Position numbers and translations under genes: made by a program. Under the pieces are notes generated by a model. The model had not been told where the DNA came from. It made no database searches and saw only the letters and a list, made by a program, of their open reading frames with translations. A stretch of 15,637 nucleotides of DNA from positions 1 to 15,637 of the forward strand of contig JAILJL010000059.1 of NCBI GenBank assembly GCA_024694785.1. The letters are read 5' to 3'. This DNA is from Lachnospiraceae bacterium (GTDB taxonomy: Bacteria; Bacillota; Clostridia; Lachnospirales; Lachnospiraceae). How positions within the stretch are numbered: position 1 is the first letter of the stretch; the number at the start of each line of letters is the position of its first letter. Of the stretch, positions 1 to 5,840 are shown piece after piece.

Positions 1-2
1 TG

Positions 3-236
3 TTCGTCTATCTTGGTTGTAATGTTAAGAAAGTTAATATTAAGGGCAATAATCTATATGAGGATGATGTTATCAAAAGAGTCATTCTTGATGATGAATA
101 TTCCTTTAATACCTTATATGTCTATCTTAAGTATAAGTTTAAGAAACCTGAATCGCTTCCTTTTATCGACAGTATGGAAGTTACGATGGATGGTTTGAAT
201 GAGCTTACAATCAAGGTATATGAGAAGAAAATAATC
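3..236 (+). pseudogene. ftsQ: Inverted fragment of divIB/ftsQ (POTRA domain), cell division protein
   Basis: In the frame starting at base 3 the plus strand reads without a stop as a DivIB/FtsQ-like POTRA domain. It begins with what looks like the end of a membrane helix (FVYLGC), then strand VKKVNIKGN, helix YEDDVIKRVI, a SFNTLYVYLKYKF segment, PFIDSMEVTMDG and IKVYEKKII. In the family this domain sits outside the membrane after the single helix and contacts FtsL/FtsB-type proteins in the divisome. The domain similarity stops around base 230-245. Beyond that the frame only reads antisense through the 3' end of ftsW to a stop at 366-368. The orientation is opposite to the rest of the dcw operon, although divIB is expected on the minus strand right after ftsW. 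The 5' end is outside the window. Recognition is from sequence pattern only. It is called pseudogene because the frame is broken by the rearrangement, which could be an assembly artefact. Confidence 0.72.
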
Positions 237-286
237 AGTATTCTGAGCAGCAAGCTGCCTTTTTCGTCCTGCGCCTCTTCCGGCAT
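237..286 (-). pseudogene. ftsQ: N-terminal stub of divIB/ftsQ on the minus strand
   Basis: An ATG at 286 lies 4 bp after the ftsW stop and follows a well-placed GAAGAAGGA about 7 bp upstream. The first codons read MPEEAQDEKGSLLLRILII: an acidic cytoplasmic tail running into the start of a hydrophobic segment. That is the layout expected for a DivIB N-terminus. Around base 240 the sequence changes to the complement of the inverted POTRA fragment, so the open frame continuing to about 122 is antisense and not real protein. A TTG at 304 and a GTG at 289 are in the same frame, but the ATG has the best spacing. Together with the plus-strand fragment this marks a rearrangement inside one gene. Confidence 0.6.
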
Positions 287-290
287 CACA

Positions 291-1448
291 TTATCCTTCT
301 TCAATATCGGACTCCTCTATCCTGATACATTTCGATACATTCAACACAATGCCGATTTCCGCAAGTAAGAATATAACCGAAGTTCCTCCGTAACTTATAA
401 ACGGGAGAGAGATACCGGTATTCGGAATCGTATTGGTTACAACCGCAATATTAAGAACAACCTGGGTCGCAATATGTCCAAGTACACCGACAACCACAAG
501 TGCTCCGAAAGTATCATTGGAATAATTTATGATTACCGCAAATCTATATATCATAAGTGCAAAAAGCACTATAACCGAAATTGCTCCGAAAAGTCCCAAT
601 TCCTCACAGATAATCGAGAATATCATATCATTCTGCGCTTCCTGTACATGTCCCAGCTTCTGTATACTTTGTCCAAGTCCCTTACCCATAATTCCGCCTG
701 AACCTATAGCATAAAGTCCCTGCAATGTCTGTGCGCCATTCTTTGCAGTCTCCGGATTAAGCCATGCGTCGATACGATCTGCTCTATAGCCAACCTTCAT
801 GATATATACCGCACCGACAAAAGCAAGGCATAAGCCGGTAAGTACAAATTGCAGATATCTTCTGCTCGATATAAAGACAATTATAAGGACTATCGCCATA
901 ACTATAATTGCATTCGAAAGGTTTGTTATTGCTATTCCCACAAACGCCGGTGCTGCCAGCGCAAAGGTTTTCGCGACAGTCTTGATATCATCGATTCTAC
1001 TGCCTATACTCGACAGGAAAGCCGCTATAAATATAATCATGGCAAGCTTTGCAAGTTCGGACGGCTGAAACGATATTCCCTTAATAACAATCCATCTCTT
1101 TGAACCGTTAATCTCTTTACCTATAACAAGCACAAGAAATACCAAAACAAGTGACACAAGATATATCCACGGAGCGAATCTTTTATATATTTTATAATCC
1201 AGATTCGAGGCGATAATCATCGCCACAAGGCCCAATATGGTATTACGAAGCTGCTTAACGAAATAATAGTTCGCTCTTCCGAACTTAAGCTCCGCAACAT
1301 AAGACGATGTCGAATAGACCATCAGGAGGCCGAAAGCGAGCAAAAACAGAGTAATGAATAAAAGCGTATAATCAAAGAAGAAGACAGATGTCTCTCTCTT
1401 CTTCTCTTTACGTCTTCTTTTGATCTCCGCTGTTGCTCTTTCCGCCAT
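291..1448 (-). CDS. ftsW: FtsW, SEDS-family septal peptidoglycan glycosyltransferase
   Basis: This 385-residue protein of about ten membrane segments polymerises lipid II at the division septum together with a class B PBP. SEDS hallmarks are visible: GSKRWI (115-120) with FQPSELAK (127-134), GKGLGQSIQKLGHV (255-268), then QNDMIFSIICEELG (272-285) whose Asp274 matches the catalytic aspartate position, and GISLPFISYGGTS (345-357). The first 20 residues are a basic cytoplasmic tail (KRRRKEKKR). The usual PDLGT-like motif in the middle of SEDS proteins reads NLSNA here (176-180). The ATG at 1448 has AAGGAG 9 bp upstream. It begins 3 bp after the murD stop and is followed 4 bp later by the divIB start, so it is clearly in the operon. 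FtsW is preferred over RodA because of the dcw context. Confidence 0.96.
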   Translation of the reverse strand: MAERATAEIKRRRKEKKRETSVFFFDYTLLFITLFLLAFGLLMVYSTSSYVAELKFGRANYYFVKQLRNTILGLVAMIIASNLDYKIYKRFAPWIYLVSLVLVFLVLVIGKEINGSKRWIVIKGISFQPSELAKLAMIIFIAAFLSSIGSRIDDIKTVAKTFALAAPAFVGIAITNLSNAIIVMAIVLIIVFISSRRYLQFVLTGLCLAFVGAVYIMKVGYRADRIDAWLNPETAKNGAQTLQGLYAIGSGGIMGKGLGQSIQKLGHVQEAQNDMIFSIICEELGLFGAISVIVLFALMIYRFAVIINYSNDTFGALVVVGVLGHIATQVVLNIAVVTNTIPNTGISLPFISYGGTSVIFLLAEIGIVLNVSKCIRIEESDIEEG

Positions 1449-1451
1449 TAA

Positions 1452-2870
1452 TTAATTCTCCTTAATGCCGTTAACTATATCCTTAAATATACGCCCACGC
1501 TGCTCGTAATTATCGAACATTCCCCAGCTTGCACATGCCGGTGACAATAATACAGCATCTCCCGTTTCAGCGTTTTTGATACATATATCCATACATTCTT
1601 CAAAGGTATCGGCCATTACGATATTGGTAACGCCGTACTTTCTTGCACATTCCGCAATCTTGTCTCTTGTGACTCCAATAAGCACAAGAAGCTTAACCTT
1701 ATTATCAAAAGCCTTGATCCAATCGTCGTACTCACTGCCCTTGTCATATCCGCCTCCGATAAGAATGGTAGGCTTAGTCATTGCCTTAATTCCCTGAATA
1801 GCAGCATCAGGGTTGGTTCCCTTAGAATCGTTATAATAATCCACACCGCGCTTTGTTGCAACGAACTCTATTCTGTGCTCTACCGCTTTGAATTTCCTTA
1901 TAACATCAAGAGTAATATCAAGCGGTACATTCATTGCCTCGGCAATCGCAAGTGCAGCCATAACATTCTCTATATTGCACATTCCGACAAGATTCATGTC
2001 GGTAACATTCATGATTCTCTTGGCTTCGTTCGGATTATCATTATATGACACAGGCGTTCCCACACAATAGCCCTTATAATCTCTTACACCGGCTCTATAG
2101 ATAGCTCCATCCTCATAATAGAATCCGTTATCGAGCTTATTCTGTGAAGAGAATGCAACTACCGTTGCAGGACATCTATCCATAAAAGCTCTGGTATCAG
2201 GGCTGTCATAATTAAGCACGCACACATCGTCCTTCGTCTGATTAAGCGTTATATCTTCTTTTGCCTTAATATAAGCTTCCATCGTATGATGACGATTAAG
2301 ATGATCGGGCGTAATATTAAGAATAGCCGTAACTACCGGATGGAACTTGATTACCGTCTCAAGCTGGAAAGAACTTATCTCGGCAACTGTAATCTCATCT
2401 TCAACCTGCTCCGCAGCCTTCTCGGTATATGGAATACCGATATTGCCGACAACATCAACATGCTTATAGTAAGCCTTCATAATCTCACCCGTAAGAGTTG
2501 TTGTCGTAGTCTTGCCGTTGGTTCCGGTTATTCCGATAACATCACCTTTTCCGCATATATATCCAAGCTCAATCTCACCGATTATCATGACGCCTCTGTC
2601 ACGCATTTCATTAATCCACGGAAGATCCGTCGGAACTCCCGGGCTTAATATAAGACAATCAATATCATTTTTTACACTGTCGCTCAATTCACCCGTAACA
2701 ATCTGCACATCAGACAAAACAGGGTTGGCGCTTTTAAGCTTATCTGTATCAAGCTTATCATTAGAATCGGCAAGAATTGCGCTTATTCCTTTTTTCTTTA
2801 AAAGTGTAATGGCCGCAACTCCACTCTTGCCGGAGCCTACAACCAGTATTTTCTTACCATCGAGTATCAT
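1452..2870 (-). CDS. murD: MurD, UDP-N-acetylmuramoyl-L-alanine--D-glutamate ligase
   Basis: MurD adds D-glutamate to UDP-MurNAc-L-Ala in the cytoplasm, using ATP. The 472 residues match the usual length. The sequence shows an N-terminal Rossmann-type nucleotide-sugar site (VVGSGKSGVAA, 10-20), the ATP-binding loop GTNGKTTTT (116-124), SSFQLE (166-171), NITPDHLNRH (185-194), a lysine-containing YIKAKED segment near 200-206 fitting the carbamylated lysine, and a C-terminal ligase domain with NDSKGTNPDA and LLSPACASWGMFDNYEQRG. Its ATG overlaps the mraY TGA by 4 bp (ATGA), and a GGAGGT site sits about 7 bp upstream inside the mraY 3' end, which fits translational coupling. ftsW follows after 3 bp. 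Confidence 0.97.
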   Translation of the reverse strand: MILDGKKILVVGSGKSGVAAITLLKKKGISAILADSNDKLDTDKLKSANPVLSDVQIVTGELSDSVKNDIDCLILSPGVPTDLPWINEMRDRGVMIIGEIELGYICGKGDVIGITGTNGKTTTTTLTGEIMKAYYKHVDVVGNIGIPYTEKAAEQVEDEITVAEISSFQLETVIKFHPVVTAILNITPDHLNRHHTMEAYIKAKEDITLNQTKDDVCVLNYDSPDTRAFMDRCPATVVAFSSQNKLDNGFYYEDGAIYRAGVRDYKGYCVGTPVSYNDNPNEAKRIMNVTDMNLVGMCNIENVMAALAIAEAMNVPLDITLDVIRKFKAVEHRIEFVATKRGVDYYNDSKGTNPDAAIQGIKAMTKPTILIGGGYDKGSEYDDWIKAFDNKVKLLVLIGVTRDKIAECARKYGVTNIVMADTFEECMDICIKNAETGDAVLLSPACASWGMFDNYEQRGRIFKDIVNGIKEN

Positions 2871-3947: not shown

Positions 3948-5840
3948 TTAATTGCCGAAAATATCCTCTTCGTAATCCTCTTCGGGAGGTGTTAAAGTAG
4001 GCACGGAACCTTCTTTATCTTCATCGGGATATATGTTGAAATACGGCAAAATCTCGCTCATGATTTCTTTAGCCAATCCGGTTGCAAGAGAACTTTGCGC
4101 CTGATTCTCGAGATTAGGCTCATCAATAATGACATATATCAAAAGCTTTGGATTATTGGCAGGTGCAAAACCGATAAAAGAAACGAGATACTTCTTATTG
4201 CCTCTCGGTAATTTCTCGGCAGTACCGGTCTTACCACCCATTGTATATCCGTCAACTTTTGCGGAATGACCCGTACCGACCTGTACCGTCGTATACAGAT
4301 ACTTACGCAGATATCTTGAGGTTTCCTCGGATATGGTCTGTCTTATAAGATAAGAATCAAGCTGCTCTTCGACGCGTCCTTCGGCAGTCCAACATTCCTT
4401 CATAACATGCGGTCTGTAATAATTGCCGCCGTTAATAAGTGAAGAAAATGCCGCTGCAAGCTGAACCATCGTGCAGTTAAAATTCTGTCCGAAGGCATTC
4501 GTAGCAAGAGAAGCTGCATTCATATTGTCTATAGTATATATAAGAGAATCGGTTCTTGCTTCACCCGGAAGATCGATATTGGTCTTCTTGCCGAATCCGA
4601 ATATTGCCTGATATCTGGTAAAGGCATCAACACCTATAACTCTGCTCATCTGCATCAAGGCATCATTACAGGAATTATTAATTGCCTGTTCTATGGTCTC
4701 AACCCCGTGACCGCTATGGTTAACGCACTTTATCTTATGACCGCCGACCATTTCATAACCGTCACAGTAATAAGTTTCATTCCCCGTAAGCTTGCCCATA
4801 TCAAGACCTGTCGCGACCGTAAACGGCTTTGCTGTAGATCCCGGTTCATATGTGCTTGTTACGCAGAAGTTATTCCAGAGATCGTTAAGAATATTAAGCT
4901 TTTCTTCGTCTTCCATCTCATCAAGCTGTTCCTCGCTGTAATAAGCAGACAAATCTCTCGGAGCATTAAGGTCAAAAGTCGGATAGCTTGCCATAGCATA
5001 TATTTCGCCGCTGTTCGGATCCATAACCATTACCGCGGTATTCTTGCTTCCAAGTCCGTACTCGCCGTCTTTAAGGCCGTCATTAAACTCCTTAATCTTC
5101 TGTTCCACAATCATCTGAACATTAATATCAAGTGTAGTGCATAAAGTATGACCATCGGTAGGATTGATTATATTCTTCTGATAATCGTTATCCGAATCAA
5201 GGTATCCGTACTGTCTTCCGTTAATACCGTTTAAGGTATCGTTATAATACTTCTCAAGTCCGGTAACACCCTCATTACCTGAAGTTATAAAACCTATGAC
5301 GTTAGCTGCAAGACTTCCGTACGGGTAGGTTCTTATGTATTCCTTCTCAAACCAGACACCTGTTACATAGGACTTCTTGGTATCGACACTCTCTTTATAT
5401 TCGTCAAATTCCCTGACTTTATCAAAAGAAACTTTCTTCAAAAGTACTAGATACTGACTCGTCTTATTCTCACTAAGCTTATTTCTTAACTCGTGTTCAT
5501 CCAATTCAAAGACTTCTGCGAGAGCATTCATTGTTACATCAATGCAATCCGATTTCGCATTAAGAACCTTGCAATCAAGAATTACGTTATATACATCGGC
5601 ACTGGTTGCAAGTATAGAACCATTTCTGTCAACAATATCCCCTCGTTTATAAGGAATTGTAATGGAAGAATACTCTTGCTGATTAAGTACGATTCGCTTA
5701 TATCGCTCGCCTTTTACCATCTGTATATATATAATTCTTCCCACTAAAAACAGTAGTGCTGCGAATATAATCACAAGCACTACCATTAGTTTCGTATTAA
5801 TTGTTCTTTTGAACATTCTGTTCTTAGACTTAGGGCTCAA
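3948..5840 (-). CDS. Class B penicillin-binding protein, FtsI/PBP2B/SpoVD type (peptidoglycan transpeptidase)
   Basis: This 630-residue septal transpeptidase has a short basic tail, one membrane anchor (about 17-40), an N-terminal pedestal domain starting IPYKRGDIVDRNGSILA (62-78), and a C-terminal penicillin-binding domain. Active-site motifs are S335-T-A-K338, S390-C-N392 and K537-T-G539. It presumably pairs with the FtsW encoded downstream. No PASTA domain follows the catalytic domain, unlike SpoVD or B. subtilis PBP2B; the protein ends in an acidic, proline-containing tail (about 605-630). The chosen start is a TTG at 5840 because AAGGA sits 7 bp upstream; an ATG eight codons later has no comparable site. 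Genes of this type are named ftsI, pbpB or spoVD; I cannot choose between vegetative and sporulation roles, but position in the dcw operon favours vegetative division. Confidence 0.93.
   Translation of the reverse strand: MSPKSKNRMFKRTINTKLMVVLVIIFAALLFLVGRIIYIQMVKGERYKRIVLNQQEYSSITIPYKRGDIVDRNGSILATSADVYNVILDCKVLNAKSDCIDVTMNALAEVFELDEHELRNKLSENKTSQYLVLLKKVSFDKVREFDEYKESVDTKKSYVTGVWFEKEYIRTYPYGSLAANVIGFITSGNEGVTGLEKYYNDTLNGINGRQYGYLDSDNDYQKNIINPTDGHTLCTTLDINVQMIVEQKIKEFNDGLKDGEYGLGSKNTAVMVMDPNSGEIYAMASYPTFDLNAPRDLSAYYSEEQLDEMEDEEKLNILNDLWNNFCVTSTYEPGSTAKPFTVATGLDMGKLTGNETYYCDGYEMVGGHKIKCVNHSGHGVETIEQAINNSCNDALMQMSRVIGVDAFTRYQAIFGFGKKTNIDLPGEARTDSLIYTIDNMNAASLATNAFGQNFNCTMVQLAAAFSSLINGGNYYRPHVMKECWTAEGRVEEQLDSYLIRQTISEETSRYLRKYLYTTVQVGTGHSAKVDGYTMGGKTGTAEKLPRGNKKYLVSFIGFAPANNPKLLIYVIIDEPNLENQAQSSLATGLAKEIMSEILPYFNIYPDEDKEGSVPTLTPPEEDYEEDIFGN

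Follow-up and report, generated by a model that had tools for sequence, protein, structure and literature searches.

The cell-division gene divIB (ftsQ) occurs in the window, which is the entire 15,637-bp contig C82 of an uncultured Lachnospiraceae draft genome, as two pieces on opposite strands just after ftsW, and this inverted arrangement is most likely not a real feature of the gene. We put at roughly 0.84 the probability that the first ~236 bases are a fold-back or template-switch chimera at the contig end. An artefact is favoured because the join lies at a contig end, shows ~6 nt of apparent inverted microhomology and spans ~273 nt, and because the gene order is intact in relatives and no inverted repeat of at least 12 nt is found on the side of the segment that the contig shows. 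The earlier note, which held an artefact to be at least as likely as a real micro-inversion, is borne out in part. The draft genome comprises 1,432,005 bases in 214 contigs (completeness 69.03%, contamination 0.71%), and the junction is located 236 nt from the end of C82, at the very start of the contig. The features discussed below are as follows.

1..236, plus strand: part of the divIB interior in inverted orientation (last part of the membrane helix and FtsQ-type POTRA domain, ending ..IKVYEKKII), identified by POTRA_1 and by blastn to locus L002
231..236: junction, with an apparent ~6-nt inverted microhomology, ATAATC (plus) / GATTAT (minus), that fits both parent pieces; placed by codon reading of both strands
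231..304, minus strand: 5' end of divIB (cytoplasmic tail and first membrane-helix residues), similar to the start of protein P0003
247..258: dyad GCAGC-AA-GCTGC within the divIB 5' codons KGSLLLR, judged incidental
291..1448, minus strand: ftsW, intact, the upstream neighbour of divIB (FTSW_RODA_SPOVE, 307.7 bits; 85% to relative genome G003)

Two pieces of divIB beside an intact ftsW

The plus strand matches the FtsQ-type Pfam domain POTRA_1 at 3-239 (25.6 bits, cut-off 23). The POTRA piece shares 82% of 79 aligned residues with the intact DivIB of L002, a locus of the Lachnospiraceae metagenome-assembled genome (MAG) Tb.RUG.265 (G003) and the closest named relative, and 88% of 78 with the nearest DivIB protein, P0003, which also gives a weak match over window 194-304. 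The plus-strand POTRA domain described in the earlier note is therefore genuine. The minus strand from 304 to 233 translates as (L/M)KKDNVMPEEAQDEKGSLLLRILI and shares 83% of 24 residues with the beginning of P0003. The signature of FtsQ/DivIB, namely a POTRA_1 domain that follows an N-terminal membrane helix beside ftsW, is represented here by pieces only, while its intact order is visible in relatives. The POTRA_1 match and the alignment to L002 establish that the break is real in the sequence, but the two pieces do not stand head to head, as had been proposed; instead, their cut ends converge.

Since P0003 begins MKKD..., divIB probably starts at TTG 304 and not at ATG 286, the start chosen in the earlier note and the alternative here. 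The motif AGAGGAG, read from the sequence, is located 7 nt before TTG 304. With this start, the first 14 nt of divIB would lie within the end of ftsW (window 291-304); the ftsW and divIB open reading frames of L002, as listed, overlap by 35 nt. An overlap of this kind suggests coupled translation of the two genes.

The junction and the neighbouring dyad

Codon reading of both strands places the junction at 231-236, a few bases from the position near 240 given previously. The plus strand reads well as DivIB up to ..YEKKII (codon ATC, 234-236), and its next codon, AGT at 237, specifies serine where relatives have glycine: among 84 DivIB homologues scanned, residue 7 of the YEK+4 pattern is glycine in 75 of the 79 matching sequences, and one of the four other matches, YEKGGTL, represents the N-terminal tail of P0005, that is, a different part of the protein. 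The minus strand reads well as DivIB through RILI (ATT, 235-233) and possibly for one or two residues more. The length of the microhomology, ~6 nt, is inferred from codons and relatives and not from the parent DNA of this strain. In the coordinates of L002, the join connects two points ~273 nt apart, ~4165-4168 and 4441.

The dyad GCAGC-AA-GCTGC is present at 247-258, as reported, and such dyads are rare in shuffled sequence (mean 0.01; found in 2 of 200 shuffles). It was rejected as a breakpoint or as the promoter of the event, a role that the earlier note had allowed it: it sits 11 nt from the junction, within the codons for KGSLLLR, is not found at the same place in L002, and lies in a region (window 200-310) that folds no better than shuffled sequence (z 0.19). 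The only inverted repeat of at least 12 nt in window 1-1600 is at 1376-1405.

divIB and its neighbours in related genomes

In L002, ftsW, a 259-aa divIB (4085-4864) and ftsZ (from 4966; named from sequence) are contiguous. When window 1-700 was used as a blastn query, with locus L036, which is the window itself, excluded, window 296-698 matched L002 4096-3694 (E 1e-120, 83% identity) and window 1-236 matched L002 4206-4441 on the opposite strand (E 7e-60, 81% identity). These opposite-strand matches are far beyond chance. The alignment to the nearest relatives' ftsW-divIB that the earlier note had recommended shows the relative to be contiguous and the pieces of the window to match it on opposite strands. 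Five of the six other genomes of the same genus that were examined carry a full-length divIB immediately after ftsW, and no DivIB match was found in the sixth, which is 62% complete. The inverted piece differs from L002 at 45 of 234 bases, distributed 6/8/31 by codon position, with dN of 0.084 (NG86) or 0.100 (YN00) and dS of 1.72 or 0.86, respectively; as coding sequence, it is under normal purifying selection.

The end of C82 corresponds to L002 4206, and an inverted segment would be expected to continue for another ~37 nt. Contig C49, which carries the ftsZ region, begins at a point corresponding to L002 ~4950, 86 nt beyond the divIB stop. Gene order is therefore conserved across the gap between C82 and C49, and the last ~0.42 kb of divIB, assembled on neither contig, falls within this gap of ~0.5 kb. 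Searches of the recovered genome with P0003 and POTRA_1 for a second divIB, or for the C-terminal part, matched C82 only, with a single POTRA_1 match and the C-terminal part missing from C82 itself; seven fetched contigs shorter than 3 kb are masked throughout (all N), and a short contig could carry a divIB copy unseen.

Two FtsW proteins, P0087 and P0088, are 98% identical to the FtsW of the window. P0087 differs at 6 of 385 residues and is listed with 22 contigs, the longest of 421,792 bp; P0088 is on a contig of 198,447 bp. None of 84 DivIB proteins, from a collection clustered at 90%, is nearer to the POTRA piece than 88%, and the DivIB of the nearest lineage may lie inside the P0003 cluster, which holds five sequences.

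Joins of this kind elsewhere

In the protein collection, the chimeric open reading frame that spans the junction (3-368) is complete only in the window's own protein, P0085. The search returned seven candidates, of which two passed: P0085 and P0086, the latter over 39% of the frame. P0086 (102 aa, from a 768-bp ENA contig) resembles the DivIB N-terminus of P0003 as far as ..YVYLKYKFK and then continues with 17 unrelated residues; it is a further divIB end that is broken on a short contig. Neither divIB antisense nor the loci compared matched this tail convincingly, and P0086 was rejected on this ground as a second case of inversion. A 27-nt pattern across the junction gave no matches in viral contigs, which is a weak test.

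Comparison of 60 contigs of the draft genome (G000; 53 readable) with G003 revealed only one adjacent inverted pair, that of the window itself. The compared portion of G003 amounted to 1,302,576 bases, about two thirds of ~1.9 Mb, and the test misses pieces below 60 bits and pairs split by a stretch boundary. Matches to G003 were found for 42 of the 60 contigs and covered 245,672 of 444,474 bases (a total that includes 18,468 masked bases); 116 contig ends were examined, of which 102 were readable and 45 matched within 60 bp of the end. Fold-backs are infrequent in the contigs examined. With only one inverted junction, extensive MDA chimerism of the genome is disfavoured, and the event would be a one-off. 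End overlaps of at least 41 nt among the 102 readable ends were limited to one pair (C41 and C50), with none of 127 nt; C82 does not belong to this pair, and such overlaps were set aside as a clue to a branch in the assembly graph. Another locus of the draft, L169 on C43, contains two pieces (1-171 and 281-1823) that match L088 of G003 at 9161-8991 and 11644-10101. The strand is the same for both, but their order is not that of G003, and the first piece lies at the contig end; a join error or a real rearrangement is possible there.

Origin of the inverted join

In the favoured reading, the divIB of the organism most likely runs unbroken on the minus strand directly after ftsW, with ftsZ (on C49) behind it. 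While the DNA was amplified or made into a library, a 3' end that reached the end of the POTRA region of divIB (..AAAATAATC) would mis-anneal to ..GATTAT.., which lies ~270 nt away towards the 5' end of the gene and offers ~6 complementary bases, and would be extended backwards, or an equivalent switch would occur in the opposite sense. Coverage would then run out in divIB, and the assembler would take the chimeric fragment as the contig end. An origin of the join in vitro or during assembly is inferred, as is low coverage at this point. Observations that agree with such an origin include (i) the joining in opposite orientation of nearby segments, ~273 nt apart in L002, and (ii) the short stretch of complementary bases, ~6 nt, at the junction (231-236). 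Two results weigh mildly against it: the examined contigs contain only one inverted junction, such that the like junctions expected elsewhere in the assembly after amplification-wide chimerism were not seen in the 53 readable contigs, and no intact DivIB from the nearest lineage, that of the 98% identical FtsW, is separately listed.

The second of these results would suit a real, fixed micro-inversion in which ~6-nt inverted repeats bounded a ~273-bp segment and divIB was broken in this strain, and the local sequence is as expected at one breakpoint of such an event. The strain would then divide without a normal DivIB or by means of an unassembled second copy. We regard this as unlikely: the inverted piece shows no decay, divIB is intact in all five same-genus genomes where it was found, no second divIB was found in the recovered genome, and the second breakpoint would lie beyond the contig, which stops ~37 nt short of it. 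The absence of decay would be expected if the ~273-bp POTRA segment flipped back, as in a reversible inverton within the gene that uses very short repeats to turn DivIB on and off, and intragenic invertons have been reported in bacteria (Chanin et al. 2024, as cited in PMC11868660). This phase-variable divisome, raised in the earlier note, found no positive support and is very improbable. The repeats are of ~6 nt only at the visible end, with no inverted repeat of at least 12 nt, and flanking inverted repeats of the kind that define invertons were not observed at the one flank that lies within the contig. No recombinase gene was recognised next to the segment, and the draft, 69% complete, has no match to PF00239 (serine recombinase) and one to PF00589 (tyrosine recombinase), elsewhere, on C200. 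None of the papers searched dealt with phase variation together with DivIB and FtsQ. The least probable of the explanations is that the piece is a true inverted duplicate, or that sequences of two strains were joined in a mixed bin, with an intact divIB elsewhere in the cell. The incompleteness of the draft and the seven masked short contigs leave room for a hidden copy, but the contamination estimate is only 0.71%, POTRA_1 matches once, and the two pieces are about equally near to P0003 (83% and 88%).

The chimera, as the favoured explanation, implies that a fold-back at a contig end can make a core cell-division gene look as if it carried an internal inversion, and calls for caution: such joins should be checked against reads before gene loss or phase variation is concluded from them. 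If the lineage with the 98% identical FtsW also lacked a full-length DivIB, a real inversion would become likely, and, if the inversion were true, a switchable DivIB would represent a striking new kind of division control.

Comparison with known systems

The pieces resemble the FtsQ/DivIB proteins of Lachnospiraceae (POTRA_1 family) in that they comprise an N-terminus and a POTRA domain beside ftsW, but differ from them in lying on opposite strands, with the C-terminal part missing from the contig. As in the intragenic invertons attributed to Chanin et al. (2024) in PMC11868660, a segment within a gene is inverted; unlike them, the window has no long repeat at the visible end and no recognised adjacent recombinase, and one orientation was seen.

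Parallels are also found among artefacts of DNA handling. According to the MicroSEC report (PMC8674242), end repair during library preparation can generate hairpin chimeras through nearby microhomology. That work concerned FFPE human samples, whereas here the chimera would be built into a contig, but both involve neighbouring sequences that snap back on each other through short inverted complementarity. For multiple displacement amplification (MDA), Lasken and Stockwell (2007; PMC1855051) state that 406 of 475 chimeras were inverted, that 337 of the inverted ones joined segments less than 10 kb apart, and that more than 70% of junctions occurred at 2-21 complementary nucleotides; the inverted join of close segments is given there as the commonest form. 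The present case differs in that the contigs examined show only one such junction. The join itself is like the template-switch chimeras described there: nearby segments, inverted, with a few complementary bases at the point of joining.
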